This document shows, piece after piece, positions 332 to 17,182 of a stretch of DNA of 64,000 bases (within the stretch, counting starts at the first letter, position 1; every line of letters begins with the position of its first letter). The stretch is taken from the NCBI GenBank assembly GCA_029233925.1, contig JARGOX010000004.1:1-64000 (forward strand), written 5' to 3'. Made by a program: the position numbers and the translations under genes. Origin of the DNA: Rhizobiaceae bacterium. GTDB taxonomy: Bacteria; Pseudomonadota; Alphaproteobacteria; Rhizobiales; Rhizobiaceae. The notes beneath the pieces are model-generated. The model had not been told where the DNA came from, ran no database searches, and saw nothing but the letters and a program-made list of their open reading frames with translations.

Positions 332-496
332 ATGGCAAATGCTCTGAAAGACGAAAACAACATTGAAGATTTGCACGAATCCGTTGAACAGTCCCGGCGC
401 AAGCTGCTGAAGAAGCTTGCCAATGGCGCCTATGCAGCGCCCGTGGCCCTTGCCATGATGACAACAAAGGCGAGCGCCTGCAGCCTGACCTGCTAG
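332..496 (+). CDS. Small peptide, candidate RiPP precursor (54 aa)
   Basis: The peptide has an acidic, charged N-terminal part (about residues 1-20), an RRKLLKKL segment, a short hydrophobic alanine-rich stretch (GAYAAPVALAMM) and a tiny C-terminal tail ending ASACSLTC with two cysteines. The layout fits a leader plus a short core, or an Arg-rich export-like segment. It ends 9 bases before a PqqD-like/HPr-kinase-like gene, so the two are likely co-translated. PqqD-like domains usually bind RiPP leader peptides; that link is known for the family, while its use here is inferred. The start at ATG 332 is preferred over TTG 230 because it gives a compact precursor. The peptide family itself was not recognised. 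Confidence 0.6.
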   Translation: MANALKDENNIEDLHESVEQSRRKLLKKLANGAYAAPVALAMMTTKASACSLTC

Positions 497-505
497 CCAG
501 GCCAC

Positions 506-1768
506 ATGCTCGATACGGAAACCAATTTCGTTGACTGCGCACGTGCTTACCCCCGGTTTTACTGGCGTCTCGTAGACGAAAGCCTTCTCGTTGTCGAACT
601 GAACACGTTCGAGTTCACATTGCTGAACGGAACGGCTGCCATGCTGTGGTTGTCCCTGCTGGATCAGGAACGTGCCCTCGGGGATCTCACTGCCATCCTG
701 GCAGAGACATCCGATCGGCCGATCGCATCCACAAACCGGGACATCGCCAGGATACTTGCCGAGTGGCGGACACTGGGATGGCTCGTAACCGACGATCATG
801 GCCGCTGCTTCATCAAGTCTCGAACAGACCGGCCGCCCCCGGCGCCCTACAAGATCGTCAGCCGCGACGACCTGGAAAACGCAGTATCCGATGCAACGCT
901 GGAGTGGCGCAAGGACATGGACTTCATGGGCACGCCTGTCGGCGTCCGGTTCCTGTGCGATGCGGGTCATGTGCGCTGCGATGCGTCGGTCAGGTCCGCG
1001 ACCTTTCTTGCTGGCCTGCCGGCTTGCGAGACCAGGTCTGAAAATCCGATCTCCTGCTACATGACCGGGAATGGCCTGTTCCTGAGGCTTGGGTATACCT
1101 GTGTCCAGGCGAGCGACGTGTCAGACGCGCTCAGCCGCATGGTTCTCTGGTGCTTCTATCTCGCCTATGGGGAAACGGATTTCCTGGGGACCTTCCATGC
1201 AGCCGCGATCGGGCGTGCGCAAGGCGCGATCCTCATGCCCGGCGTATCGGGTGTCGGCAAATCGACCTTGACCGCCTATCTTGCTGGCCAGGGTTGGCGC
1301 TATGGCGGCGATGATATCGTCGGCCTGTCCCGCCCCTTTGGCAACGATAAAGGCAATCTTGTTTTGCCCTTTTGCTCTGCAATCAGCGTCAAGGCCGGCG
1401 CTGTTTCACTGCTTGATCCGTTCTATCCTGATCTGGCCGCACTGCCGCAGATCCATTACGACACCAAGTCCGCCCGGTTTCCCGTCGTGCCTCAGGCCTG
1501 GCAAATGAACGGCGACGTTTCCACCCGGCGGATACAGGCGATCGTTTTTCCGCATTTCGGGAAGCATTTGCCAACAGAGCTGACGCCGCTCACCACGAGC
1601 GAGGCGCTACTGGCGCTGGTCGGGGTTGGATACCGGACCGGGGAAAAGATGGATGCGGTGCTGTTGCACAATTTGTTCGACTTCCTTGAGGATACGCCGA
1701 AATACCGACTGGAATTCTGCGACCTGGAAGCCGCGGACGAAACGCTCAGGAGCGTCCTGTGTCCCTGA
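506..1768 (+). CDS. PqqD-like / HPr-kinase-like fusion protein
   Basis: The protein has 420 residues. Residues about 15-100 read like a PqqD/RRE domain, with a segment around 34-53 (NTFEFTLLNGTAAMLW) matching the LN-x-T-x-A-x-x-W core and a following helix-rich half. Residues about 225-400 read like an HPr kinase fold: Walker A GVSGVGKST at about 246-254, then YGGDD at 266-270, the usual nucleotide and metal site. HprK-related kinases next to PqqD proteins and nucleotidyltransferases are known from peptide-modification loci, and one HprK-like enzyme phosphorylates a lasso peptide. Here the recognition and kinase parts are in one chain. It would bind the 54-residue peptide and phosphorylate it or a partner; that is inference. 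It overlaps the next gene by 10 bases. Confidence 0.7.
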   Translation: MLDTETNFVDCARAYPRFYWRLVDESLLVVELNTFEFTLLNGTAAMLWLSLLDQERALGDLTAILAETSDRPIASTNRDIARILAEWRTLGWLVTDDHGRCFIKSRTDRPPPAPYKIVSRDDLENAVSDATLEWRKDMDFMGTPVGVRFLCDAGHVRCDASVRSATFLAGLPACETRSENPISCYMTGNGLFLRLGYTCVQASDVSDALSRMVLWCFYLAYGETDFLGTFHAAAIGRAQGAILMPGVSGVGKSTLTAYLAGQGWRYGGDDIVGLSRPFGNDKGNLVLPFCSAISVKAGAVSLLDPFYPDLAALPQIHYDTKSARFPVVPQAWQMNGDVSTRRIQAIVFPHFGKHLPTELTPLTTSEALLALVGVGYRTGEKMDAVLLHNLFDFLEDTPKYRLEFCDLEAADETLRSVLCP

Positions 1769-2817
1769 CCATGGAAGAACAGGTGCAGGCGCGCGATTGG
1801 CTGTGCAGAACACTTTCGCCCTATTACGCTGATGAGACCCCGCCTGCACCGCCGCAACAGCTCTGGCCGGAAATTGTCAGACTGTCAGACGCCGGGTTGG
1901 TTGCACCGCGCCTTTATCGTCGCACGCGCGATCTGGGATTTCTGCCGGCGGAAGTCGAAGACGTGCTTTCCGCCGTTTTCGAATATGCGACGTTGCGCGC
2001 CAGGGGGATGCGCAGCGAGCTTGAAGGCATCATCCGCTTTTTGAACGATGCAGGACTCGAGCCGGTTCTGTTCAAGGGCGCGGAATGGCTTATGGGGCAT
2101 TATGCGCCGGGATCACTGCGTTTGATCGGTGATATCGACATTTGGTTTCCAACCGGAACGGAGCAGCAGGAAGCTCTGAGAATTTTTCAGTCTGCCGCCT
2201 ATATGCTGCTCACACCCGTTGATCAGCACAATCTGACAAGCAACCATCACTACCCGCCACTCCACAAGGAAAATACGATTGCCCGCGTGGAACTGCACCA
2301 TCAGCTGATCCGGCCAAAACTCGCAGAGATCATGGATCTCACAGGCACCGCCGACCGTCTTCGGCCGGCAAAAATGGACGACCTTCGATATCGCCGCCTG
2401 GCGATGATGGACGGCGTGACCATCGCTTACCTGCAATCGGGACACATGGGGGCGCCACCCTTTGAGACGAGGCGTATCGCCATCGCGAAATGGCTGGACT
2501 TCATGGACCGTTTCGCCGAAACCGGACACACCCATTTGACAGAACCACGGGAAATCGGAATCCTGACCGACCCTGGCGATATCGACGTACAACTGCTCAC
2601 AGCCTTGTCCGTCAAGTTCGGCTTTCCCTACAGGGGCAAAATCGACACCGCCTATACTGACAGCTGGGTCGCCCCGGCATCCAGCTCATCCATCATGGCC
2701 CACAGCCTGAGACGGTCCCTGACCTTAAGAAACCTGCTCTCTCCTTCCGCCTGGTGGCGCTTCGTGAAAAATTTCAGAAAGCGGCTGGAAGCCGTTCTGT
2801 ACGCGAAGTCGCTCTGA
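1759..2817 (+). CDS. Nucleotidyltransferase family protein (NTP_transf_5-like)
   Basis: This 352-residue protein carries FKGAEWL at about 105-111, then R121 and GDIDIW at 124-129, the lysine-glycine and D-x-D pattern of the uncharacterised nucleotidyltransferase family PF14907. The rest is helical and basic at the C-terminus. The GTG at 1759 overlaps the previous gene; an ATG at 1771 is an alternative start. Proteins of this type sit beside HprK-like kinases in lasso-peptide and related loci, so it is taken as the third member of the cassette. It probably transfers a nucleotidyl group, but the substrate is unknown. Confidence 0.65.
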   Translation: MSLTMEEQVQARDWLCRTLSPYYADETPPAPPQQLWPEIVRLSDAGLVAPRLYRRTRDLGFLPAEVEDVLSAVFEYATLRARGMRSELEGIIRFLNDAGLEPVLFKGAEWLMGHYAPGSLRLIGDIDIWFPTGTEQQEALRIFQSAAYMLLTPVDQHNLTSNHHYPPLHKENTIARVELHHQLIRPKLAEIMDLTGTADRLRPAKMDDLRYRRLAMMDGVTIAYLQSGHMGAPPFETRRIAIAKWLDFMDRFAETGHTHLTEPREIGILTDPGDIDVQLLTALSVKFGFPYRGKIDTAYTDSWVAPASSSSIMAHSLRRSLTLRNLLSPSAWWRFVKNFRKRLEAVLYAKSL

Positions 2818-2835: not shown

Positions 2836-3120
2836 GTGAGAACCAGACTTCGTTCAATCCCCGGAAATCAGATCGAATTTGAAGGCTTTGACGGCCGCAA
2901 AGTCGTCGCCGGTTTTGCGGGCGGAGCGATGACCTCGGATGCTGGCGCCATGCTGCTGCGTCACGCCGACAAGGCGACTGGCCCGTTCGACCGGGTCGCG
3001 TCCTGCTTTGTCGATCACCGCAATCGATATCTCACAGTGCATAGCGGTGCGCACATAGGTTGCACGGCGCATCTCGGCAATCAGGTTTATGATCAACCCC
3101 ATCCCCCTCAATTCCCTTGA
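2836..3120 (+). pseudogene. IS1380-family transposase N-terminal remnant
   Basis: About 70 residues match the start of IS1380 DDE transposases: EFEGFDGRKVV, then GGAMTSDAGAMLLR, then VASCFVDHRN. The similarity fades after about residue 70 and the frame ends at 3120, while full transposases have more than 400 residues. The catalytic region is absent. The GTG at 2836 fits the family start. No terminal inverted repeats were seen. The remnant marks an old rearrangement between the peptide cassette and the xdh operon. Confidence 0.75.
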
Positions 3121-4698: not shown

Positions 4699-7029
4699 AT
4701 GAACACACAGGTCAAACCATCCAGCACGGAAATCTCCGGTGGCGTGCACAAGCCGCGCCGGCATGATTCAGCCCATAAACACGTCACCGGCACAGCCGAT
4801 TATCTCGACGATATGAATGCGCCCGTCGGCACATTGCATGGCTGTCTGGGGCTTTCCGAGCGCGCCCATGCGGGCATACGGTCGATGGATCTGGATGCCG
4901 TGCGTGCAGCACCCGGTGTGGTCGATGTTCTGACCGCAAGGGATGTGCCCGGCGTCAATGACATCAGCCCCTCGGCGCGCCACGACGAGCCGGTGCTGGC
5001 CGATGGCCAATGCCAATTTTACGGCCAGCCGCTGTTTGCGGTGATTGCCGAGACCCGCGCGGCGGCCCGCCATGCGACGCAGCTGGCAAAAATAGACTAT
5101 GAGGACAGGCCGTTTGAAAGCGATGTGGTTGCAGCGATGGCGGCGGATTACCCGCATGTCACCGACCCCCTGACGCTGGCCTATGGCGATGCGGCTTCGG
5201 CATTGGATTCCGCCACCAACCGGTTGCAGGGCGAGATGCGCATCGGCGGCCAGGATCACTTCTATCTCGAGGGCCATATCGCCATGGCTATCCCCGGCGA
5301 GGATGACGAGGTGACGGTGTTTTCATCGACACAGCATCCAAGCGAAGTGCAGCACATGGTGGGCCATGCGCTGGGCGTGCCCTCTGCGGCCGTGACGGTG
5401 AAGACCCGCCGCATGGGTGGCGGTTTCGGCGGCAAGGAAACACAGGGCAACCAGTTTGCCGCCATTGCCGCCATCGCCGCCAAGAAACACAATCGTGCGG
5501 TGAAAATCCGGCCAGACCGCGACGACGACATGATCGCCACGGGCAAGCGCCACGATTTTCACGTCGCCTATGATGTGGCCTATGACAATGAGGGGCGGAT
5601 CGAGGGACTTGACGCAACCTTCGCGGCGCGCTGCGGCTTTTCATCGGACCTGTCGGGTCCGGTCACCGACCGGGCGCTGTTTCATGTCGACAATTGTTAT
5701 TTCCTGCCGAATGTGAAACTCGCCTCGCGGCCGATGAAGACCAATACGGTTTCCAACACGGCGTTTCGCGGCTTTGGCGGCCCACAGGGCATGCTCGGCG
5801 GCGAGCGGGTGATCGAAGAGATCGCCTATGCGCTGGGCAAGGACCCGCTGGAAATCCGCAAGATCAATTTCTACGGCGAGAACGAGCGCAATATAACGCC
5901 TTACCACCAGATAGTGGAAGACAATATCATTGCGCGCATTGTCGCCGAGGTGGAAAGGACCTCGGATTATCAGGCGCGGCGCGAAGCGGTCATCGCCTAC
6001 AACAAGACCAGCCCGGTCATTCGCAAGGGTATCGCGCTGACGCCGGTCAAATTCGGCATTTCCTTCACCGCCACCTGGTTCAATCAGGCCGGGGCGCTGG
6101 TGCATATCTACCAGGACGGCTCGATCCACCTCAACCATGGCGGCACAGAAATGGGCCAGGGGCTCAATACCAAGGTGGCGCAGGTTGTGGCCGACGAATT
6201 CCAGGTAGACCAGGAAAATATCCGCATCACCGCGACGACAACCGAAAAAGTGCCCAACACGTCGGCCACGGCGGCCTCGTCCGGCTCCGATCTCAATGGC
6301 ATGGCAGCGGCCAATGCGGCGCAGCAGATCAAGGTGCGGCTGGTCGCCTTTGCCTGTGAACATTATGGCGTACCGGAAGAGCAGGTCAGCTTCGTTCCCA
6401 ACCATGTGCAGGTCGGCAATCAGATGATCCCCTTCCCCGACTTCATCCAGCAGGCCTATTTTGCCCGGGTGCAGCTTTCGGCGGCGGGTTTCTACAAGAC
6501 GCCGGAAATCCACTGGGACCGCGAAAAGGGCCAGGGCCAGCCATTTTTCTACTTCGCCTATGGCGCCTGTGTGTCGGAAGTCTCGATCGATACGCTGACC
6601 GGCGAATATCATGTCGACCGTGCCGACATTCTGCATGACGTCGGCCGCTCGCTCAATCCGGCGATTGATCTGGGACAGGTACAGGGCGCCTTCGTGCAGG
6701 GCATGGGCTGGCTGACGACGGAAGAATTGTGGTGGGACGACAAGGGCCGTTTGAGAACCCACGCGCCCTCCACCTACAAGATCCCGCTGGCCTCCGACAA
6801 GCCGAAGATTTTCAATGTCGAACTGGCCGCCTGGTCGACCAACAGCAAACGCACCATCCGCCGTTCCAAGGCCGTGGGCGAACCGCCCTTCATGCTGGCC
6901 AATTCGGTGCTGGAAGCGCTGTCCATGGCGGTGGCCAGCGTGGCCGAATACAGGGTCTGCCCGCGGCTTGACGCACCGGCCACGCCGGAACGGGTGCTGA
7001 TGGCTGTCGAGCGGATGAAAAAGGCCTGA
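4699..7029 (+). CDS. xdhB: Xanthine dehydrogenase molybdopterin-binding subunit
   Basis: XdhB (776 aa) binds the molybdenum cofactor and carries out hydroxylation of xanthine. Seen in the sequence are GGGFGGKE near residue 238, AFRGFGGPQG near 355, the GTEMGQG segment near 480, and VGEPPFML near 726, which contains the catalytic glutamate. Length matches the family and there is no signal peptide, as expected for a cytoplasmic enzyme. It lies 3 bases after xdhA and 3 bases before xdhC. Confidence 0.97.
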   Translation: MNTQVKPSSTEISGGVHKPRRHDSAHKHVTGTADYLDDMNAPVGTLHGCLGLSERAHAGIRSMDLDAVRAAPGVVDVLTARDVPGVNDISPSARHDEPVLADGQCQFYGQPLFAVIAETRAAARHATQLAKIDYEDRPFESDVVAAMAADYPHVTDPLTLAYGDAASALDSATNRLQGEMRIGGQDHFYLEGHIAMAIPGEDDEVTVFSSTQHPSEVQHMVGHALGVPSAAVTVKTRRMGGGFGGKETQGNQFAAIAAIAAKKHNRAVKIRPDRDDDMIATGKRHDFHVAYDVAYDNEGRIEGLDATFAARCGFSSDLSGPVTDRALFHVDNCYFLPNVKLASRPMKTNTVSNTAFRGFGGPQGMLGGERVIEEIAYALGKDPLEIRKINFYGENERNITPYHQIVEDNIIARIVAEVERTSDYQARREAVIAYNKTSPVIRKGIALTPVKFGISFTATWFNQAGALVHIYQDGSIHLNHGGTEMGQGLNTKVAQVVADEFQVDQENIRITATTTEKVPNTSATAASSGSDLNGMAAANAAQQIKVRLVAFACEHYGVPEEQVSFVPNHVQVGNQMIPFPDFIQQAYFARVQLSAAGFYKTPEIHWDREKGQGQPFFYFAYGACVSEVSIDTLTGEYHVDRADILHDVGRSLNPAIDLGQVQGAFVQGMGWLTTEELWWDDKGRLRTHAPSTYKIPLASDKPKIFNVELAAWSTNSKRTIRRSKAVGEPPFMLANSVLEALSMAVASVAEYRVCPRLDAPATPERVLMAVERMKKA

Positions 7030-7032
7030 CCC

Positions 7033-7836
7033 ATGGCTTTGCAGGCGGAGCAACTGGCGCAATTCCTGGATCGCAAGGCCGCCATCGTGCGGGTGACGGT
7101 CCTCAAGGCGCTGGGCTCAACGCCGCGCGAGGCCGGCACATGGATGCTGGTGTCAGCCGATGGCCTGTTCGGCACAATCGGCGGCGGCCAGCTTGAACTG
7201 ATGGCCATCAAAGAGGCGCGCGCGCTGCTTGCCGCCGGCGAGAACGAAGCGACGATGGATATTCCGCTCGGACCGGATATCGGCCAGTGCTGCGGCGGAC
7301 GGGTGACGCTGGTGCTCGACCGGCTGGACAAGGGCGCCGTGCAGGATCTTGTCGACGCGATGCGCCGGCAGGACGAGGCGCTGCCACAAGTGCTGATATT
7401 TGGCGCAGGCCATGTGGGCAAGGCGCTATGCGCCGCGTTCAACTTGCTGCCGGTCAGGATCATTCTGGTGGAGACGCGCCAGGCGGAACTGGATGGCGCG
7501 CCGCCCGGAATCGAAAAACACCTGACCGCCATGCCCGAAAGCCTGGTCGGGCAAGCCCCGCCCCATTCCGCCTTTGTGGTGACGACACATGATCATGCGC
7601 TTGATTTTCTCATCGTCAGCCAGGCGCTGGCCCGCGACGATGCTGCCTATGTCGGCATGATCGGCTCAAAGACAAAACGCGCCACCTTTGCCAGCTGGCA
7701 CGAGAAGGAAGGCGGCAAGAGATCCGACAGTGACCGGCTGATCTGTCCGATTGGCGGCGGCACTGTGCGCGACAAGCGCCCGCAGGTCATTGCCGCGCTG
7801 GTGGCCGCAGAAATCATGACGGCCTTTGCCGTTTGA
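7033..7836 (+). CDS. xdhC: Xanthine dehydrogenase accessory protein XdhC
   Basis: XdhC (267 aa) binds sulfurated molybdenum cofactor and inserts it into XdhB. The N-terminal part contains GSTPREAGTWM and FGTIGGGQLE; the C-terminal Rossmann-like part contains LIFGAGHVGKAL near 120 and YVGMIGSKTKR near 208, all typical of the family. It is the last gene of the xdhABC operon and is followed after 9 bases by a convergent gene. Confidence 0.95.
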   Translation: MALQAEQLAQFLDRKAAIVRVTVLKALGSTPREAGTWMLVSADGLFGTIGGGQLELMAIKEARALLAAGENEATMDIPLGPDIGQCCGGRVTLVLDRLDKGAVQDLVDAMRRQDEALPQVLIFGAGHVGKALCAAFNLLPVRIILVETRQAELDGAPPGIEKHLTAMPESLVGQAPPHSAFVVTTHDHALDFLIVSQALARDDAAYVGMIGSKTKRATFASWHEKEGGKRSDSDRLICPIGGGTVRDKRPQVIAALVAAEIMTAFAV

Positions 7837-7845
7837 CACCGAAGA

Positions 7846-8253
7846 TCACATTGGTGCGTTGTTGATCTCGACAACATTGAGATCGGGGTCGTTCAGATAG
7901 ACCTGGATGAAACCGGTGGGACTGTCGCGGAACAGCACCATCCGCTTTGGATCGCCCTCTTCGGCCGTTTCGCTGTACCCAAGCTGGGTCAGATCGGCCA
8001 GCACTGCATCCATATCATCGGTGCGGAAGGCAAAATGCGCATCCGCGATATCAACCGCCGGATTGCTGCGGTGGGTTCCGGGCGGGTGATCGATGATGTG
8101 GATCTGGCGGTCGCCGCAGGCAAACCAGGCGCCGTCGAAGGCAAAATTGGGTCTTTTCAAAAGCTCCAGTCCGATCACATCCCTGTAGAAGGTGACGGAG
8201 CGGGCGACATCGCGCGCCAGTATCGATACGTGGTGCAGGATCAAATTCTGCAT
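7846..8253 (-). CDS. VOC family (glyoxalase/bleomycin-resistance-like) protein
   Basis: This 135-residue protein starts with HHVSILARDVARSVTFYRDVIG, the usual VOC-domain opening, and ends with VYLNDPDLNVVEINN, which holds the glutamate of the metal site. Two beta-alpha-beta-beta-beta units fit the length. VOC proteins are metal-dependent lyases, dioxygenases or binding proteins; the substrate cannot be read from the sequence. It sits 28 bases downstream of a LysR gene on the same strand and converges on xdhC. Confidence 0.8.
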   Translation of the reverse strand: MQNLILHHVSILARDVARSVTFYRDVIGLELLKRPNFAFDGAWFACGDRQIHIIDHPPGTHRSNPAVDIADAHFAFRTDDMDAVLADLTQLGYSETAEEGDPKRMVLFRDSPTGFIQVYLNDPDLNVVEINNAPM

Positions 8254-8281
8254 GGTGTTTTTCCCTTTATTCTCTGGCGCG

Positions 8282-9196
8282 CTACTGCAGGGCAGCGCGG
8301 ATCATCTTCTGGCAGCGGGCCGCCATGAAATCAATGAACAGCCGCAATTTCGGATCCTGAAAATCCTTGTGCGGAAAGATCACCGCCAGTTTCGCCTCCA
8401 CCGGCGGTGTGTCTGGCAGAACTTCGACAAGCTGGCCGGATTTCAGATATTTATGCACCTCGAAGCGCGGCCGGTTGGCAATGCCGTGGCCGTTGAGCGC
8501 CCATTCCAGCAGCACATCGCCATCATCGGAATCGAAAGCGCCGCTGACCTCGATTTTGCGCACACCGTCCGGCGTCTGCAAGGTCCAGACATATTCATTG
8601 GAGCCCGGAAAGCGCAACAGCAGGCAATTGTGATTGCCGTGGATCAGATCATCGATGCTCTTCGGCATGGTATTTTTGGCGAAATAGTCCGGCGCGGCGC
8701 ATAGCACCCGTTCACAATCCATCAGGCCGCGCATGCGCAGGCTGGAATCCTCGATCACCCCCAGCCGGAAAGCCAGATCGATGCTTTCCTTCAGCATGTC
8801 GACATTGTGGTCCGACAGGCGCAGGCGCACCATGATATCGGGATATTGATCATGAAATTCCGGAATGCCCGAAGCAATGAACCTGCGGCCAAAGCCCAGC
8901 GGCGCAGTCACCCGGATGGTGCCCTTCGGCTGGCCGGAGACCGATGCGATCGACGCCTCGGCATCTTCCACGGCCTTGACGATGCGCCCGGCGCCAACAT
9001 AGAAAATCTTGCCCTGTTCCGTCGGTGTCAACTGGCGTGTGGTGCGGTTGAACAGGCGCACACCCAGGTATTTTTCCAGTTCCTTCACCCGATTGCTGGC
9101 GACCGCCGGCGACAGGCGCATATCGCGCCCGGCGGCAGAAAGATTGCCCAGTTCGACCACCCGAAGGAAGACCTTTATATTTTCAAAATATGACAT
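8282..9196 (-). CDS. LysR family transcriptional regulator
   Basis: This 304-residue protein has an N-terminal winged helix (FLRVVELGNLSAAGRDMRLS, then VKELEKYLGVRLFNRTTRQL) and a periplasmic-binding-protein-like effector domain from about 90 onward. Sequence style is that of the CrgA/DhcR-like LysR branch. It is divergent from puuD, with 108 bases between them that hold a strong inverted repeat. The position suggests control of puuD-guaD and perhaps xdhABC; this is inferred from context. Confidence 0.85.
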   Translation of the reverse strand: MSYFENIKVFLRVVELGNLSAAGRDMRLSPAVASNRVKELEKYLGVRLFNRTTRQLTPTEQGKIFYVGAGRIVKAVEDAEASIASVSGQPKGTIRVTAPLGFGRRFIASGIPEFHDQYPDIMVRLRLSDHNVDMLKESIDLAFRLGVIEDSSLRMRGLMDCERVLCAAPDYFAKNTMPKSIDDLIHGNHNCLLLRFPGSNEYVWTLQTPDGVRKIEVSGAFDSDDGDVLLEWALNGHGIANRPRFEVHKYLKSGQLVEVLPDTPPVEAKLAVIFPHKDFQDPKLRLFIDFMAARCQKMIRAALQ

Positions 9197-9221
9197 GGGT
9201 CATTCCTATTATTATTTAGTT

Positions 9222-9261
9222 TTTTTTGAAAGTCATCCGGTGAGTTTTCGCTTTCAAAAAA
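9222..9261. promoter_or_regulatory. Inverted repeat between lysR and puuD, likely operator
   Basis: TTTTTTGAAAG at 9222-9232 is repeated as its exact reverse complement at 9251-9261, with an 18-base spacer. It lies in the divergent promoter region between the LysR gene and puuD, where LysR proteins normally bind. The 9-mer TTGAAAGTC within it also occurs upstream of xdhA at 3117-3125. Confidence 0.5.
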
Positions 9262-9304
9262 TGCCCGCGCCCTGCAAAATGGCGCAAACCAAAGGGGAAG
9301 CCGC

Positions 9305-10558
9305 ATGTATGAATTTGCCATTGCCTGGGACTGGCTGTCTTTTGCCGCGCGCTGGCTGCACGTTGTGACGGCCATCGCCTGGATCGGCTCGTCCTTCTAT
9401 TTCATTGCGGTGGATCTGGGCCTGCGCCAGCGCCCCGGATTGCCCGAAGGCGTCCATGGCGAGGAATGGCAGGTGCACGGCGGTGGTTTCTACCATATCC
9501 AGAAATATCTGGTGGCCCCGGCCGAGATGCCGGAGCATCTGACCTGGTTCAAATGGGAATCCTATGCCACCTGGATGTCCGGCTTTGCGATGATGTGCAT
9601 CGTCTATTATGCCGGCGCCGACCTCTATCTGATCAATCCGGAGGTGCTGGATATTTCAGCCCCCGTGGCGATCATCATCTCGCTGGCATCCATCGTCTTT
9701 GGCTGGATCGCCTATAATTTTCTGTGCAAGGCCTCGCTCGGCTACTCCGACACCTTCCTGATGGTGTTCCTGTATCTTGTGCTCGTTGCCATGGCCTGGG
9801 GGTTTACGCAGGTATTCACAGGCCGCGCGTCCTTCGTCCACCTGGGGGCCATTACGGCGACGATCATGTCGGCCAATGTGCTGCTGATCATCATTCCCAA
9901 CCAGAAGATTGTCGTTGCCGACCTGGTTGCCGGGCGCAAGCCCGATCCGAAATACGGCAAGATTGCCAAGCAGCGCTCGACCCACAACAATTACCTCACC
10001 CTGCCGGTGATCTTCCTGATGCTGTCGAACCATTATCCGCTGGCCTTTGCCACCGAATACAATTGGTTGATTGCATCGCTGGTCTTCCTGATGGGCGTCA
10101 CCATCCGCCACTGGTTCAACACACGCCATGCCCGCAAAGGCAATCCCACCTGGACATGGCTGGTCACGCTGGTGCTGTTCATCCTCATCATGTGGCTGTC
10201 GACAGTGCCGAAAATTCTGACCGGTGAAAGCGAAGAGGCCTCCATGCAGGTCGCACCGGCGTTTGCGCGTTTTACAGCCGATGCGCATTACCCGGCGGCA
10301 AAAGACGTAATCGTGTCGCGCTGCTCCATGTGCCACGCGCAGGAGCCCGTCTGGGAAGGCATTATCGCCGCGCCCAAGGGCGTCATGCTGGAAGAGGATG
10401 CACAGATTGCCTCTCATGCGCTCGAAATCTACCTGCAGGCCGGGCGCAGCCACGCCATGCCACCGGCCAATATCACGCGGATCGCGCCTGAAGAACGGAA
10501 GTTGCTGGTGGCCTGGTTTGAAAGCGCCGCAGCCTCCAAAGCGGAGAATGCCCAGTGA
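9305..10558 (+). CDS. puuD: Urate hydroxylase PuuD (membrane protein with cytochrome c domain)
   Basis: PuuD (417 aa) oxidises urate to 5-hydroxyisourate and passes electrons through its haem. The first 310 residues are a membrane domain with about eight helices, starting with WLHVVTAIAWIGSSFYFIA and containing GGGFYHIQKY. The C-terminal domain carries one haem c motif, CSMCH, at about residue 340, and MPPAN near the end as the likely methionine ligand. It takes the place of a soluble urate oxidase; none is seen in the window. It overlaps guaD by 4 bases (GTGA). Confidence 0.93.
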   Translation: MYEFAIAWDWLSFAARWLHVVTAIAWIGSSFYFIAVDLGLRQRPGLPEGVHGEEWQVHGGGFYHIQKYLVAPAEMPEHLTWFKWESYATWMSGFAMMCIVYYAGADLYLINPEVLDISAPVAIIISLASIVFGWIAYNFLCKASLGYSDTFLMVFLYLVLVAMAWGFTQVFTGRASFVHLGAITATIMSANVLLIIIPNQKIVVADLVAGRKPDPKYGKIAKQRSTHNNYLTLPVIFLMLSNHYPLAFATEYNWLIASLVFLMGVTIRHWFNTRHARKGNPTWTWLVTLVLFILIMWLSTVPKILTGESEEASMQVAPAFARFTADAHYPAAKDVIVSRCSMCHAQEPVWEGIIAAPKGVMLEEDAQIASHALEIYLQAGRSHAMPPANITRIAPEERKLLVAWFESAAASKAENAQ

Positions 10559-11862
10559 CATCACGGCTGATCAGGGGAAGGCTTCTGTCCTTCAAGGATG
10601 TGCCCCGGGACATCGATGACACATCATCCTACAGCTATGAGGAAGATGGCGCGGTGCTGACCACGGACGGCGTGATCATCGCCTCGGGCGATTATGCCAG
10701 CGTGAAACAACAGGCACCGGCGGAGGCCATCGCGATTGATCACCGGCCCCATCTGATCATGCCCGGCTTCATCGACACCCATCTGCACTTTCCGCAAATG
10801 CAGGTGATCGGCTCCTATGCGGCAGCGCTGCTCGAATGGCTCAATACCTATACATTCGTCGAGGAGCAGAAATTTGTTGATCCGGTTCACGCGGCGCGCA
10901 TAGCCACGGCCTTTTTCGACGAGCTTGTGCGCCACGGCACAACCAGCGCCGTGGCCTATTGCTCCGTTCACAAGAGCTCCGCCGAGGCGTTTTTCACCGA
11001 AAGCCACAGGCGCAATTTCCGCATGATCGCCGGCAAGGTGATGATGGACCGCAATGCGCCGCCTGCCCTGCTCGACACGCCGCAATCGGGCTATGACGAC
11101 ACCAAGGCCATCATCGAGGAATGGCATGGCAAGGGCCGTCAGATGGTGGCCATCACGCCGCGTTTCGCCATTACCTCCAGCCCCGAACAGCTGGACATGG
11201 CCGGCGCGCTGATGCGCGAATTCCCCGACCTGCACATGCAGACGCATCTGTCGGAAAACCACGCCGAAATCGAATTTACCAAAGAGCTCTATCCGCAGCA
11301 CCATGACTATGTGGCGGTCTATGACCATTACGGCCTGCTGGGACCCAAAAGCCTGTTCGGCCACTCCATTCACCTCAGCGACCGCGAGGCCGATGCCATG
11401 TCGGCCAGCGGCTCGGTCGCGGTCTTCTGCCCGACCTCCAATCTGTTTCTGGGCAGCGGTCTCTTCGACCTCAAGAATCTGGACGAACGCGACGACCCGG
11501 TGCGCATCGCCATCGCCACCGATATTGGCGGCGGCTCCAGCTATTCAATGCTGCGGACATTGGATGAGGGCTACAAGATCCTGCAATTGCAGGGCCAGCG
11601 CATGACGCCGCTGGAAAGCTTCTACCGCATCACCCTCGGCAATGCCCGGGCGCTGTCGCTGGAAGACAGGATCGGCACCATCGAACCTGGCCGCGAGGCC
11701 GACATGGTGGTGCTCAATGCCGGCGCCACACCGGCCATGGCGCTGAGAATGGAAACAGTGACGAAGCTGAGCGAGGAACTCTTCCTGCTGCAAACGATGG
11801 GCGACGACCGGGCCATCGTCGAGACCTATATCGCGGGCGAACCGGCGAAGAGTGTTTTGTAG
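10555..11862 (+). CDS. guaD: Guanine deaminase
   Basis: GuaD (435 aa) converts guanine to xanthine. It is an amidohydrolase: GFIDTHLHFPQMQ holds the HxH metal ligands, YTFVEEQKF, QTHLSEN and GHSIHLSD follow, and TDIGGGSSYSML carries the late aspartate. Length matches the family. The GTG start overlaps the puuD stop, so both are cotranslated. It supplies xanthine to XdhAB. The gene ends 22 bases before the tRNA-like fragment that marks the island edge. Confidence 0.94.
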   Translation: MTSRLIRGRLLSFKDVPRDIDDTSSYSYEEDGAVLTTDGVIIASGDYASVKQQAPAEAIAIDHRPHLIMPGFIDTHLHFPQMQVIGSYAAALLEWLNTYTFVEEQKFVDPVHAARIATAFFDELVRHGTTSAVAYCSVHKSSAEAFFTESHRRNFRMIAGKVMMDRNAPPALLDTPQSGYDDTKAIIEEWHGKGRQMVAITPRFAITSSPEQLDMAGALMREFPDLHMQTHLSENHAEIEFTKELYPQHHDYVAVYDHYGLLGPKSLFGHSIHLSDREADAMSASGSVAVFCPTSNLFLGSGLFDLKNLDERDDPVRIAIATDIGGGSSYSMLRTLDEGYKILQLQGQRMTPLESFYRITLGNARALSLEDRIGTIEPGREADMVVLNAGATPAMALRMETVTKLSEELFLLQTMGDDRAIVETYIAGEPAKSVL

Positions 11863-11884
11863 GGGGGGCCGCACCGGAAACACT

Positions 11885-11932
11885 GATTGAAAATCCTCGT
11901 GTCGGCGGTTCGATTCCGCCTCCGGGACGCCA
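11885..11932 (+). other. 3' fragment of a tRNA-Phe-like gene, likely attachment site
   Basis: From the GATTGAAAATC anticodon arm (GAA anticodon) through the variable region GTGTC, the T arm GGCGG-TTCGATT-CCGCC and an acceptor-like TCCGGG segment ending in CCA, the sequence follows bacterial tRNA-Phe. The 5' half (acceptor strand, D arm and 5' anticodon stem) is missing, and the end GGGACGCCA does not match the normal acceptor exactly. Such anticodon-to-3' fragments are typical att sites left by tRNA-targeting integrases. It sits exactly where the purine genes stop and the defence island begins. No second copy and no integrase were found in the window. Confidence 0.6.
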
Positions 11933-12040
11933 CTTTTAAGTAGTAATATCAGTGGATTAAATGCGAGCACGGTATGCGTCATGACCGTGGATAGTCATGG
12001 GGTATCAATCTGCACCGGTTCAATTTCAACCAATCCACGC

Positions 12041-13786
12041 CTACGGGGTTCCAGTAGTTCCGGATGGTGCCGCCACGGTCATGACCGTCTTGTAGTGCGT
12101 CAAGCATTGATCGATACGAGACAAAAGGTCTGAGAAACCTGAAAAATCTACGGTTGAGGCGTTTGCGCGTACAACTTTCTCGGCAAAGACAACTTTTCCG
12201 TAGGCCGTTTCATCTCCATGATCCTTCTTTTTGTCGAAGGGTTTTCCGTCGAGAACAGTTGCCAGCAGCGCTGGCAGAAATAGATCTTCAATATCCCTAT
12301 CCATCGGAGGCGTAACTTCGGGCACTTTAACCAAATAGAGGTTTTCGCCGAGATGATAGAACGGCTCGGTCGTTATTTTTGAGATCTTCTTCCCGCATTT
12401 TTTGGCCGCGTTTTTAAAGACTTTGTCTGGTCCTCCATCGTTATCGCACAGGATTATAACTGGGTGTTCCATCGGTCTGTAGACATACTTTTTAAGTATG
12501 TTTGAGTATTGCGAAACAAGAGACGCTTGCCCCGACGCACCATGCCCCAAGTTCAATACATCACGGGTCGTTCCGGTAGGGCGAAGGAAATTGACTGAAT
12601 GTGTTGTCTGTCCATCTTTCTCCTCCACCAAAGCAGGAAATGATTTGGCCAGGGACCTGATCGCACATTTTAGGTAGGTGATATCAGAAATTCCTTCTGT
12701 CACGATCACGGGAGCCAACGGTGCTGCAAAATGTTTGTACAGAAGGAATTTTCGATAGAGATCGACAGGCGCATGAGGCGGCTCAAACTCTCCCGCTCTG
12801 GTGGCGAGACGATTTACTTGTGGCTTTCGATCTCTTCGTGCTTTCACAAAATAGATGTGTGACAGCATCCCTTCCAAAGGGTTGAGACTGTCAATTGGTT
12901 CTGGCGCATCCCCGGACTTCTTGTAGTAGGAGCCAGTACGGAACAGTGAGTTACACATCGAACGAGCGGTTCGATAATAGTCAATATTAACATTTGCTTT
13001 TGCATTGACGACCAAGCCTGTCACTGTTTGTCGAGACCGGCGTAACGACATTCTTGTCTTACTTTCGTTCAGTGTGAAACCAGCGCGTTCGATTTGTTTG
13101 CTTAATCGCTTTCCTGCTATCCAATCGCTGCCGTGGACGTTAATGGCAATCTCCGTGGGGAAAAGTTTTTCATTCGTTGAGAAGGTTAAGTCATCAGCAT
13201 AGCGAGTATATGTACACCTTGTGTCACGCGCCATAGCCAGCAACCGAAGATCAAGAATGTTACCAATAAGATTTGAAATTACAGGAGAGCAAGGACTCCC
13301 TTGGGGAAGCGCATTATCGTGGCAGGCAATTTGCGCGATGATGGTCGCGATAGCGGGATCAAGAGTGAAAGCTTTGTCGTGAATGAAAAAGCCTCGCACT
13401 CGTCCAAAATTCAACGTACCAAAGAAATTCTCTATATCCACATTGAAGACAAATCGGCGACGACGATGCACCTCCGCATTAGAGATAATTGTGCGATTTT
13501 TCTGAAATCCATGCGATGCATGCCAAAATCTCGGGTGAATCTTTTGATGTTCGGTCACGCACTCGTAGAGCAGTTCACCCATCCGCCTTTGTAACAACGA
13601 AAGAGATTTTTCTGGTGCATTGATCGTTCGTGTACCGCCGTTCTTTTTCGGGATTTCAAACTTTCGGTATTTATGGGCGGTGGGAAGTTTGTAGAGGACA
13701 TAGCTTGCGCCCTTGGGGGTAAAACCAAGAAGTTTGGCAAGGTCAGTTAAGTTTTTTGCGTTCTGTAATTTTTCTAAGGAACTCAA
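12041..13786 (-). CDS. Retron reverse transcriptase with C-terminal TOPRIM domain
   Basis: This 581-residue protein makes msDNA and carries its own effector. The RT part shows VDIENFF (116-122), PQGSPCSP (161-168) and the YADD active site (196-199). It has both retron-specific marks: NAEVH (103-107, the NAxxH motif) and VTG (255-257). Residues about 358-460 form a TOPRIM domain, with VTEG (Glu364) and the CDND pair (Asp448, Asp450). RT-TOPRIM fusions are known from retron Ec67 (Eco2) relatives, and the length is similar. The TTG start at 13786 is the only one that keeps the full N-terminus; an ATG 11 bases upstream is out of frame and stops at once. The msr-msd RNA lies just upstream. Confidence 0.88.
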
Positions 13787-13807
13787 GATAAACTCATGTT
13801 GTTAGGT

Positions 13808-13939
13808 GCTTACGGGCACTCTTAAGCGAGGTTTACCGATCATCAGAAAATCGAAAATACCGAAAGGAACTGAAGGTAGCAGCCTACCTACCGTTGTTGT
13901 CATTTGCCGCGATGCGCAGCAGAAAGTCTGCCCGTAAGC
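13808..13939 (-). ncRNA. Retron msr-msd non-coding RNA
   Basis: An 11-base perfect inverted repeat (13808-13818 and 13929-13939; GCTTACGGGCA on the transcript's 5' side) brackets 110 bases and ends 22 bases before the RT start. This is the a1/a2 architecture of retron RNAs. Inside are a six-pair hairpin at 13906-13920 (GCTGCG-CAT-CGCGGC, one G-U pair) and a five-pair hairpin at 13875-13888 (GGTAG-CAGC-CTACC). The 3' part is an A/T-rich stretch that would be the msd template. The branching G and exact msd ends cannot be fixed by eye. Confidence 0.75.
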
Positions 13940-14006
13940 TCGTATGAACTTGAATGAAAAACGCTCAAATTGCAAGGCTATCCGATTGATTTTGTGCCAA
14001 TATTCT

Positions 14007-15419
14007 TTACATAAAGAATCGGAAATCATAAACACGATCGACCATATCTGGGTTCTGCTGAAGAATCTCAGCGAATGCCTTTGAGTATCCAAGTGTCACG
14101 GGCAAATTCTTGTAAAGCGTGTTGTTGTTCCAGTCCATCTTGGTTAATCCAAGAACCCCTGAACAGGTTTCATGCCACCCCCCTTCACCTGAGTAGCGAC
14201 GTAGAAGAATCGGAGATGGCGTCGGTTTGAGGCCGCCTTCTTTGTAGACATTATAGCGTGGGTTATCGACGTGAACTCCTTGCACGCTGCCTTGTGTCCA
14301 AAGCAAAGCTTCGTTTTCGCTGAGGGGAACATACGTGCCCCGATCTACTGGGTATCCATGAGCAGCGAGTGGCGCCCCCTCGAAACGAACACCCTTCCAG
14401 CCCGTGCCTTTAACAATCTGTACAAGCTCGACTTCTGTGCCATCCCGAAAACTATCAAGCGCGCCAAGAATCTCATCTTCCTTGAACGGTGTGTTCTTGT
14501 GAATTGTAACTTTTTTCGGAATCGCACCTAAGTGGCCGCGCTGGTATATTTCGAGGCTGCGGGTCAACACAGACTGGATTTCATAATATGACAGGTAGGG
14601 ATTTCGCTGCTGATCTTGCGTGAATTCTTGCGCATCATAGGCAACGAACTTGAACCCTGTGCCATCAGGATCAAAGACTTGGCTGCAGCATGTACTGTAC
14701 TGAGTTCCAGTTTCTTTGTCGGTTTTCATGGCATAGCTGATGCCGATGAAAGCCTCATCCACACTAAGACCGGCTAGTTTCCATGGGATTCCCCCGGCTT
14801 TTGCATAGATGGCGACACTTAACCCCCACATGACGTTCGCGCGGCATTGCCTTTTGAAGCTGGCCTCCCGAACGATTTGGATGGGAATGTTTGAAGGCGC
14901 GCAATACGCCTTCAAATAGTCATGGAAGTCGAAATTATCGCCGTCAAAGCAAGCCGCCCAGCTATCTGGTAGGTACACCAGAGCAACATCAAAATTGCTA
15001 GCTTGCTTTTGCAAAGTAGCAATATGTTGGAAAAGGCCCTGAGCTAAACCAACCTTGTCTCGCTTTTGGGAAAATGCGTCGAGTTCCTGAGGGAACGCCA
15101 AAATCAAAGCATCATCTTGGGTGGCAATTGGTACTCTGAAGAGAGTGTTGAAACCCGGGTATTCGGGGTAATAGTTTTTTGCTTCTCGCGGGCGAACTGT
15201 TCGGTTCATCTCCATTGTAAGACCTCGAAGCCGATCCATATCAGCCCGTGGAGCAAGAAGAGCAAAACGAACAGATGCCGGAAATCCAAGCTTTAACCCG
15301 TAGGGGCCGTGTTGAATTAGGCCAAGTAGGGGGTGTTTGTGTTGCCTGCCGTCGTTGAAAATGAGTTCAGGCTCAGCAATGCGTGAGTATCCCCCAAGGG
15401 CGCTGTCTGATGCAGCCAT
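14007..15419 (-). CDS. Short prokaryotic Argonaute (MID-PIWI)
   Basis: This 470-residue protein fits a short pAgo made of MID and PIWI domains only. The MID region holds [12 protein letters not shown], with the lysine and glutamine expected in the guide 5'-phosphate pocket. The PIWI part starts at [13 protein letters not shown] and contains IGISYA and later [22 protein letters not shown] near the C-terminus. The catalytic aspartate tetrad of slicing Argonautes is not evident, as is usual for short pAgos. Its ATG shares one base with the stop of the SIR2-APAZ gene (TAATG), so the two are translated together. In the known SPARSA systems this protein senses foreign DNA by a guide and switches on the SIR2 partner. 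Confidence 0.87.
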
Positions 15420-17182
15420 TACACCAACCTCTTTGCAAAAGCGGTGCGTGTTCCAATCAAGAACTCTGGGTTCTCCGCTTGGCTGCCACCGTCAAAAGCA
15501 GTTAGTTTAACCTCAGTGTCCCGCTCATTCGTACCTAAAGCAATACGAACCCAAGCATCGAGAAGCGCGTTAAATGTCTTATTAAAACGATTGGAGCGGC
15601 GCTTATCCAAAATCGGAATAGCATCCCGTCTTGCCCTCGGTGGCCAGACCCAGATATCAGGGTCTATTTGCAACCAAGCCCGCCCACCTTTGACCTCCAA
15701 AGAGACGCGTGCGGCTTCTGCCCACCTTACCTGTTCTTGATGGGGATGGTCGTCGGTCACTTCTGTAAAAAGCCCCGAAATCTTCGCAGAGAAACTTCCT
15801 ACGACTGCCTTTAAGGGATCAAGCTGATCCAAATCGTCACTGTGGGGGTCAACGATCAGCCAAGACGCGTAGCGAGTCGACCTTGAAAGAAGCGGCTTAT
15901 CTTTGGCAAGGGCCTTACAAAGAGCCGCTTCAATGAAACCTTTTACATGTAGGCTCTCTGGCGCGGTTGGATCGCTAGGCAACTCAACATCACCAATAGA
16001 GGAAATCTCGTGTCCAAAACACTCCTGCACTAGTGATCGCCGCCCCCAACACCATACATTCTCGGCCTTGGTGAAAATGAGATTCCCCTCCGCGTCACCC
16101 TGCGACTTGCGGAGATCGGACCAGTCCTTCGGGTTTTTGAAATCTAGTGACAGACAAGTCTTCGGAAGTGTTTTGATGGGAAGAGCATTAAAGCGCACCA
16201 ACGGGTTCGCTGTTCCAACTGGCGGCACGGGAATAGAAACCGTCGCGGCGCTAGATTTCCTGACTTGGAGGTCCAATTTCGCCGTTTTGCCTTCTATGTT
16301 CCGCCAAATACGTGAAAGCAATGAATCAAAAGTTTCAACCGGAACGTAATTGGCTCTAACGCCCTTTTCGGTCGCTTGATCTAGCAAACTTTGAACAGCG
16401 GGAAGCGGACGGCTCCCTTTCATGCCGGTCCAGAGTAAGCCATGAGGAAAAGGATTAGACCCGTCGAGTGCAGAACGAAATAGCGCCATGACACTCTCAT
16501 CACGGCCACTATATCCCGTAACAACGAACCCAAAACGGCTACTTGCATTCTCGAAACAACGCGATAGGTGCCTGTTTTGGCTTGCGAGATCAGCCGACAA
16601 ATTCTTCAGATTGTCGTAGCGAAAATCGCCATGGAGCTTGCAGTAAACGGGGTATTCTTCATTGTTGAGAGCGTCGATTGCGGAACGAGAACCTTCCAAA
16701 TGGAATGCGGACAACGACATGGCTCCAACATCGGCCACCGCTTTTTCGATTACACTGTCAAAGTTCGTGGTGAAAACAGCACGTGTCATCCCAGATGAAA
16801 GCATTGCGCCAAAAACGCGGTGTCCAACGGACAGTGATACTTTTTCTTCCGATAGCTTCGCTTTTAAATATCTTCGCTGCCGTTCTCTGTCCTCACCAAA
16901 TATTTTTTCAAAGCACATAGAGTATTCTTTATCATCCCAAAGAGGCGGAAACCCTCTAGTCAATAAAAATGATTGGATCTTTTCTTGGACTGCTCCCAGC
17001 TGCATGTCTTGATGAGATATTTCTTGGTTTTCTTCCCTACAATAATAACGTCTCTTCATGTCCCACAGCAGGTCGGTAGCGGTCGGAAGACCTGCCGAAC
17101 GAGATGAGCCTGCTCCTAGAAACCAAGCGAAGTTTTCTGGGCGTTCACATATTGATGCTGTTAATTGTGCTTGATCGATCAA
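15419..17182 (-). CDS. SIR2-APAZ effector of a SPARSA-type Argonaute system
   Basis: This 587-residue protein has an N-terminal SIR2 NADase domain: [13 protein letters not shown] at 21-33, TTNFD at 138-142, KLHGD (histidine 184) at 182-186 and GYSGRD at 223-228. The remaining 300 or so residues would be the APAZ domain that contacts the short Argonaute. Together the pair matches SPARSA systems, which deplete NAD and stop growth when plasmid or phage DNA is sensed. The gene is first in a minus-strand series followed by pAgo and the retron. An 8-base inverted repeat (CTACCGCA, 17193-17200 and 17264-17271) lies in its upstream region. Confidence 0.87.

Follow-up and report, generated by a model that had tools for sequence, protein, structure and literature searches.

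The window analyzed here comprises the first 64 kb of contig C14 from a 6.1-Mb Rhizobiaceae genome of 43 contigs, and its first three kilobases carry three genes, all on the plus strand, that encode a 54-residue peptide, a 420-residue protein with a leader-binding part and a kinase part, and a 352-residue nucleotidyltransferase (NTase). The three genes probably form a leader-guided peptide-modification cassette, the features of which are as follows.

332 to 496, plus strand: micro-precursor peptide, 54 residues, with a possible ribosome-binding site (AAGG) before the ATG
479 to 493, plus strand: tail CSLTC of the peptide (residues 50–54), with the presumed modification site Ser51 and possibly Thr53
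506 to 1768, plus strand: fused PqqD/B1-like leader-binding and HprK/PEPCK-fold kinase protein, 420 residues
548 to 814, plus strand: predicted PqqD/B1-like leader-binding domain, approximately residues 15–103 of the fusion
1178 to 1759, plus strand: HprK-related kinase domain, approximately residues 225–418 of the fusion
1759 to 2817, plus strand: NTP_transf_5 NTase, 352 residues, with a possible true start at ATG 1771

The coordinates, lengths, and reading frames of the three genes, as well as the 9-nt gap between the peptide and the fused protein, were correctly given in the preliminary description. The N-terminal part of the fused protein narrowly exceeds the cut-off of the PqqD family (PF05402, 23.5 bits versus 23.4), and the same match is stronger in several relatives. 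The predicted model of this part has three strands followed by three helices, as in B1/PqqD structures, suggesting that it folds as the leader-binding (RRE) domain that had been proposed. The C-terminal part matches TIGR04352 (HprK-related kinase A) with an E value of 3.8e-21, and the two profile matches together bear out the joining of a PqqD-like to an HPr-kinase-like part in one chain. At 75.4 bits against a cut-off of 200, the protein is related to TIGR04352 but lies outside the family as defined, which rules out a canonical HPr-rel-A member; the fused types (the window and four relatives) score 68–88 bits, whereas two members over the cut-off reach 228 and 394. No TIGR04353 match was listed for the fused protein up to an E value of 10, the chaperone domain being fused here rather than encoded by a separate gene. 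A true bifunctional HPr kinase/phosphatase (TIGR00679) was rejected at 11.7 bits against a cut-off of 240, and an anti-phage defence role was set aside because neither the fused protein nor the NTase has a PADLOC match at E 0.001.

The kinase part retains His231, Gly246, Gly249, Gly251, Lys252, Ser253, Asp269, and Asp270, and His231, Gly249, Gly251, Lys252, and Asp269 are invariant in a 23-row kinase alignment. The spacings within this H-G-G-G-K-S-D-D octet (15, 3, 2, 1, 1, 16, and 1) are identical to those of BsfK. While the sequence profile of the kinase finds HprK (3tqf, E 3.7e-5), the fold search with the kinase model returned PEPCK chains only among the best 50 matches listed, so that the HPr-kinase-like assignment stands at the level of sequence and widens to HprK/PEPCK at the level of fold. 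HprK and PEPCK share a fold, and the PEPCK matches therefore do not discriminate. It is conceivable that the fused protein is instead an activating enzyme, in which leader-bound, PEPCK-like ATP chemistry would ligate, amidate, or extend the C terminus and turn the tail into a small metabolite; we regard this as very unlikely because its active site has the same octet as peptide serine kinases that have been tested.

A first search of genome contigs gave no close relatives of the fused protein, and an alignment-based second scan gave 46 loci; gene sets related to this one are present in many bacteria. The single-chain fusion is not unique: a detectable PqqD part is present in 34 of the 84 kinases in our tree, and one fused relative is already annotated as a “PqqD family peptide modification chaperone.” Detectable fusion requires 11 changes on this tree, at least six of them forced by well-supported branches, implying that the fusion arose or was lost several times. 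At another locus (L147:2685-4739, minus strand), the fusion occurs in reverse order, with the kinase first, and adjoins a leader protein with a Gly/Arg-rich tail; by eye, L057 and L064 also seem to have the PqqD part at the C-terminal end.

The third gene belongs to the nucleotidyltransferase family, as had been claimed, its product scoring 75.6 bits with PF14907 (NTP_transf_5; E 5.9e-21, cut-off 31.2). Lys106, Gly107, Arg121, Asp125, and Asp127 are invariant in a 20-row alignment. The C terminus is shorter than in most of these rows, and the NTase of a Methylobacter relative is also short. The described overlap of the fused gene and the NTase gene is 10 nt if translation begins at GTG 1759. 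However, the near-invariant first methionine of the alignment, in the column where the relatives start, is Met5 (ATG 1771), and the NTase may thus begin there, which would leave a 2-nt gap instead.

The 54-residue peptide consists of a hydrophilic N-terminal part, the motif SRRKLLK with the arginine pair at residues 22–23, a hydrophobic stretch that includes YAAP (34–37), the sequence ASA (47–49), and the tail CSLTC. Neither this peptide nor any of the leader family members tested reaches the cut-off of a Pfam or NCBIfam model. By eye, open reading frames (ORFs) around related kinases encode small or medium-sized proteins with a similar pattern of RR..L, AP, and AxA, and among 54 leader cores collected in this way the second arginine is present in 52 and the proline in 45. 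We built leave-group-out profiles, in which each group of related loci was scored with a profile made without that group, and applied them to ORFs of at most 260 residues within 2.5 kb of a kinase at a threshold of 10 bits. The score was 35.7 bits for the window peptide and 5.4 for the runner-up among the 697 window ORFs of at most 260 residues, which rules out a chance ORF. A leader ORF of at least 10 bits was found at 43 of 69 kinase loci (43 of 68 distinct loci, as the misses L052 and L113 are the same contig), 23 of these ORFs being of at most 135 residues and 20 longer; the match was present at 17 of the 24 loci with detectable fusion. None of 3092 background ORFs more than 3 kb from a kinase reached 8 bits. 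Among the misses, a peptide is evident by eye in L047, L048, L057, and L058; others show none. With a fixed profile, a leader peptide was detected at 12 of 15 later kinase loci, one of which (L203) has much DNA in common with the seed locus L092; two of the later loci that were missed, L190 and L191, have candidates by eye. Homologous kinase loci thus usually have a leader protein close by, in keeping with the pairing of peptide and kinase in the preliminary description.

The closest relatives of the window were identified in the tree of 84 kinase domains, where it forms a group with L189 and L190 (100/90), joined next by L069 (100/85), bootstrap support being not fully settled. L189 has the same gene order as the window, with three tandem peptides followed by the fused protein and the NTase, whereas L069, a Methylobacter metagenome-assembled genome, has the fused protein, the NTase, and then six tandem peptides. 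Of these six, five are read from GTG starts, and an AAGGA or GAGGA site precedes four of the five. At L190, three peptides are visible and the N terminus of the kinase protein resembles the others, both by eye; at E 0.01, Pfam gives no PqqD match for this protein, and the stretch covered yielded no match to an NTase. The six L069 peptides (L069:8436-9804) are paralogous, with near-identical leaders and tails of 2–7 residues that are all different except for one pair.

Comparing the four loci, the leaders are alike and the tails vary: CSLTC in the window; RPS, RPS, GAGSAID, GS, TSAFG, and TSLTC in L069; SA, Y, and S in L189; and DS, R, and VS in L190. The SLTC ending of the window peptide recurs in one Methylobacter peptide, and serine is present in 11 of the 13 tails. 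The chance of such a serine frequency in the last five residues is approximately 4e-5 at 6.5% serine, or 1.3e-4 for unique endings, and approximately 7e-8 with the tails cut by eye. A common C-terminal serine rule over all 72 leader proteins is unsupported, with serine last in 13 and within the last five residues in 34. The cysteine-containing tail that had drawn attention is indeed present in the window peptide, but cysteine is not general among the relatives, and it was dropped as the main signal because many short tails lack it. Judged from the sequences, what the relatives have in common is a Tat-like leader, accompanied in the closest ones by a very short, apparently serine-bearing tail. 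Among eight flanking ORFs each of L069 and L189 (E 0.001), we found no protease, cyclase, or exporter, which makes these cassettes look complete as they stand; the flanking ORFs belong to homoserine succinyltransferase, AIR synthase, deaminase, hydantoinase, dehydrogenase, and similar families or to none.

A reverse search of 41 relatives, starting from the peptide profile, gave 16 matches, and the three in the genome of the window are all strong and all small leader proteins. Ten of the other 13 regions were examined: a kinase is present in three (L147, L150, and L151), L152–L154 encode longer secreted-type proteins by eye, and at L146 the leader peptide was not recovered by the scan. At about 25 bits, the matches also take in ordinary, longer proteins of the Tat type. 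Such matches, the unlinked leader protein on contig C3 of the same genome, and the often longer leader proteins of split systems (171–242 residues in L048, L065–L067, L078, L082, and L103) could mean that the window peptide is an ordinary Tat-type signal or anchor, that the fused protein and the NTase act on another, larger secreted protein, and that the small ORF is a relic or decoy substrate. We consider this unlikely, given that the four loci of the window's clade yield only very short-tailed peptides, in tandem in three of the four, and that the strong matches in this genome are without exception small.

Our preferred reading is therefore a leader-guided peptide-modification cassette, and we assign a probability of roughly 0.6 to the whole scheme, including binding, phosphorylation of Ser51, transfer, and export. 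Its basis consists of the genes, the predicted domain folds, the conservation of the active site, and a leader and tail pattern that is kept among the relatives; from these we infer leader binding, phosphorylation, transfer, and export. The B1-like domain would bind the hydrophobic, YxxP-type part of the Tat-like leader and thereby place the tail CSLTC in the fused HprK-fold kinase, which would phosphorylate Ser51 or, less likely, Thr53. The NTP_transf_5 enzyme would then transfer a sugar or nucleotide onto that phosphate, and the twin-arginine signal would insert the peptide into the membrane or export it across. The peptide might then remain anchored, as a stub whose tip is modified; alternatively, cleavage after ASA might free a tiny peptide that carries the modification. 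Of the two products suggested in the preliminary description, a phosphorylated peptide appears to be the best reading of the sequence, whereas for nucleotidylation the sole in vivo precedent that we found is a hexose transfer: in the pseudomycoidin system, a nucleotidyltransferase attaches one or two hexoses to the phosphate in vivo (PMC8498205).

Several observations weigh against this scheme. The Tat profile TIGR01409 narrowly misses its cut-off on the peptide (15.6 bits versus 16.7), with the arginine pair and AxA visible. No leader ORF of at least 10 bits was found at 26 of the 69 kinase loci, seven of which have detectable fusion, and L198, one of the later loci, and L068 show no leader peptide even by eye. 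Conversely, L145, L148, L149, and contig C3 of this genome have a leader peptide and no kinase in the stretch examined; such peptide-only loci and the longer secreted-type matches indicate that leader proteins may lie apart from a kinase or be independent of one, and that the profile grades into ordinary Tat signals. The serine statistics are weakened in that tandem copies are not independent and tail boundaries were set by eye after seeing the data, and two of the 13 clade tails lack serine. An aromatic residue (Tyr, Trp, or Phe) three positions before the leader proline is present in only 23 of 72 leader proteins. Finally, YxxPxL is a motif in lasso leaders, and replacing its residues in BsfA did not stop phosphorylation, so that the motif need not be a contact and YxxP in the window leader is a hint only.

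Beyond the window, it is possible, at odds that we would put slightly short of even, that these loci represent a widespread, undescribed class of ribosomal peptides. The leader would be both an export signal and the place where a leader-binding kinase docks. Kinase and NTase would attach a sugar or nucleotide, linked through phosphate, to a serine of a 1–7-residue tail, and tandem copies would vary the tail. One or more peptides, the fused kinase, and the NTase would suffice, without a dedicated protease, cyclase, or exporter, and the product, a modified stub displayed on the membrane or a tiny phospho-conjugate that is secreted, might act as a signal or cofactor.

The cassette is bounded by two further features.

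1 to 55: upstream edge, a 55-mer also present at the ends of contigs C15 and C6, where the assembly breaks at a repeat
2836 to 3120, plus strand: transposase remnant (DDE_Tnp_1_4; PF13701, E 7.5e-10, profile positions 5–59 of 435 only), the downstream edge

As window position 1 is the first base of contig C14, the identity of bases 1–55 to the ends of C15 and C6 implies that the assembly breaks at a repeat and that the true upstream genes lie outside the contig. Xanthine dehydrogenase-like genes (ORFs by eye) are located 3′ of the transposase remnant. DNA of the fused gene (506–1500) has no long match in seven other genomes of the genus, with 29-base pieces only, in two of them. Taken with the remnant and the repeat break, this makes the cassette look acquired. 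The same flanks and missing DNA matches, together with the shortened NTase C terminus, would also fit a decaying remnant that is functionless in this strain; this seems distinctly unlikely, as all three reading frames are open, the catalytic residues are kept, and the Methylobacter NTase is short too.

In view of the upstream break, the cassette might also be what an insertion element has left of a lasso-peptide tailoring module, the real precursor, protease, and cyclase of which would lie elsewhere in the genome. Proteins of the B1, K, and N types take part in lasso tailoring, and a B1-B2-K-N set is present on contig C12 of the same genome. However, the only PF13471 (B2) match in the genome at E ≤ 0.001 is that one, mid-contig on C12, no B2 or Asn-synthetase-like cyclase lies among the eight flanking ORFs each of L189 and L069, and a lasso ring takes 7–9 residues, for which a 5-residue tail is too short. 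We therefore judge a truncated lasso module highly improbable, and the window peptide as a lasso peptide is ruled out by its 5-residue tail after ASA and the lack of a linked B2. The C12 set (L131; G000:C12:50000-68000, 6923–9777) comprises PqqD (B1), Transglut_core3 (B2), an HprK-like kinase, and NTP_transf_5 on the opposite strand.

Other loci of this genome carry related parts. A second, richer cassette on contig C7 (L061; G000:C7:356000-375000, 7081–15744) encodes a Pro/Thr/Ser-rich leader protein with an AWAAPV leader, a 427-residue PqqD-containing protein, a 219-residue protein without a Pfam match, a 732-residue protein that has an HprK-like part and a sub-threshold O-FucT match, a 2OG-Fe(II) oxygenase, and NTP_transf_5, which suggests hydroxylation and glycosylation of a Pro-rich peptide. 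Sets resembling it occur in G066 (L058), G203 (L150), and G201 (L151). The unlinked third leader protein on contig C3 (L130; G000:C3:128500-147500, 8881–9243) has 120 residues and a Pro/Thr-rich tail and is paralogous to the leader protein on C7; the 19 kb covered contain no profile match to a kinase, PqqD, or NTase. Further along the window, a short prokaryotic Argonaute (pAgo_I, E 5e-192) adjoins a SIR2-type partner (Aga_SIR2-PNTD1-PNTD2, E 2.5e-190) at 14007–17182 on the minus strand, a candidate SIR2-pAgo defence pair by sequence. Its neighbour at 12041–13786, also on the minus strand, is a Toprim-containing reverse transcriptase (RT-Toprim_I-C, E 2e-218) that may by itself constitute an anti-phage system.

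Sets of kinase, PqqD, and NTase genes are named in NCBI annotation, and we found no functional account of them in the open-access literature, a scope that leaves subscription journals and most preprints outside. There, no paper was found on “HPr-rel-A,” HprK-related kinase, PF14907/NTP_transf_5, PqqD with HprK, or PqqD with precursor peptide and twin-arginine, nor any account of a Tat-like precursor family, of tandem precursors with 1–7-residue tails, or of a fused leader-binder kinase; the available main text of the RRE-Finder paper does not contain HPr, kinase, or nucleotidyltransferase. An earlier description outside the open-access literature is possible. The Tat-like leader protein family of the window locus and its relatives is a candidate substrate for these sets. 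With its three genes, the cassette would also be a compact setting in which to study, outside lasso peptides, serine phosphorylation guided by a leader and the transfer that follows it, and its natural single-chain leader-binder/kinase has potential as a tool enzyme.

Comparing the cassette with known systems, it resembles the lasso systems of paeninodin, pseudomycoidin, and BsfA in its B1-like binder, its HprK-type kinase with the eight residues and their spacing, its NTase gene, and the YxxP in its leader. It differs in that binder and kinase form one chain, no linked B2 protease was found, the leader is of the twin-arginine export type, and the tail has five residues; moreover, most leaders of the window's clade have a hydrophobic residue at +3 after the proline, not +2. 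The HPr-rel-A system (TIGR04352 kinase, TIGR04353 PqqD chaperone, and NTase) has the same three functions in the same order behind a Tat-like leader protein, as in L048, where genes with NCBI HPr-rel-A names follow the order leader protein, PqqD, kinase, and NTase. Unlike that system, the window has its chaperone domain fused, with no separate TIGR04353 gene, and the fused types fall well under the TIGR04352 cut-off, whereas the leader proteins of many split loci carry 92–190 residues beyond the core. PqqD/RRE domains of other ribosomal peptide pathways share the fold and Pfam family, but that of the window is joined in one chain to a kinase of HprK fold. All parts of the cassette have precedents and the split version is named by NCBI, and the nearest tested chemistry is that of the phosphorylated lasso peptides and pseudomycoidin.
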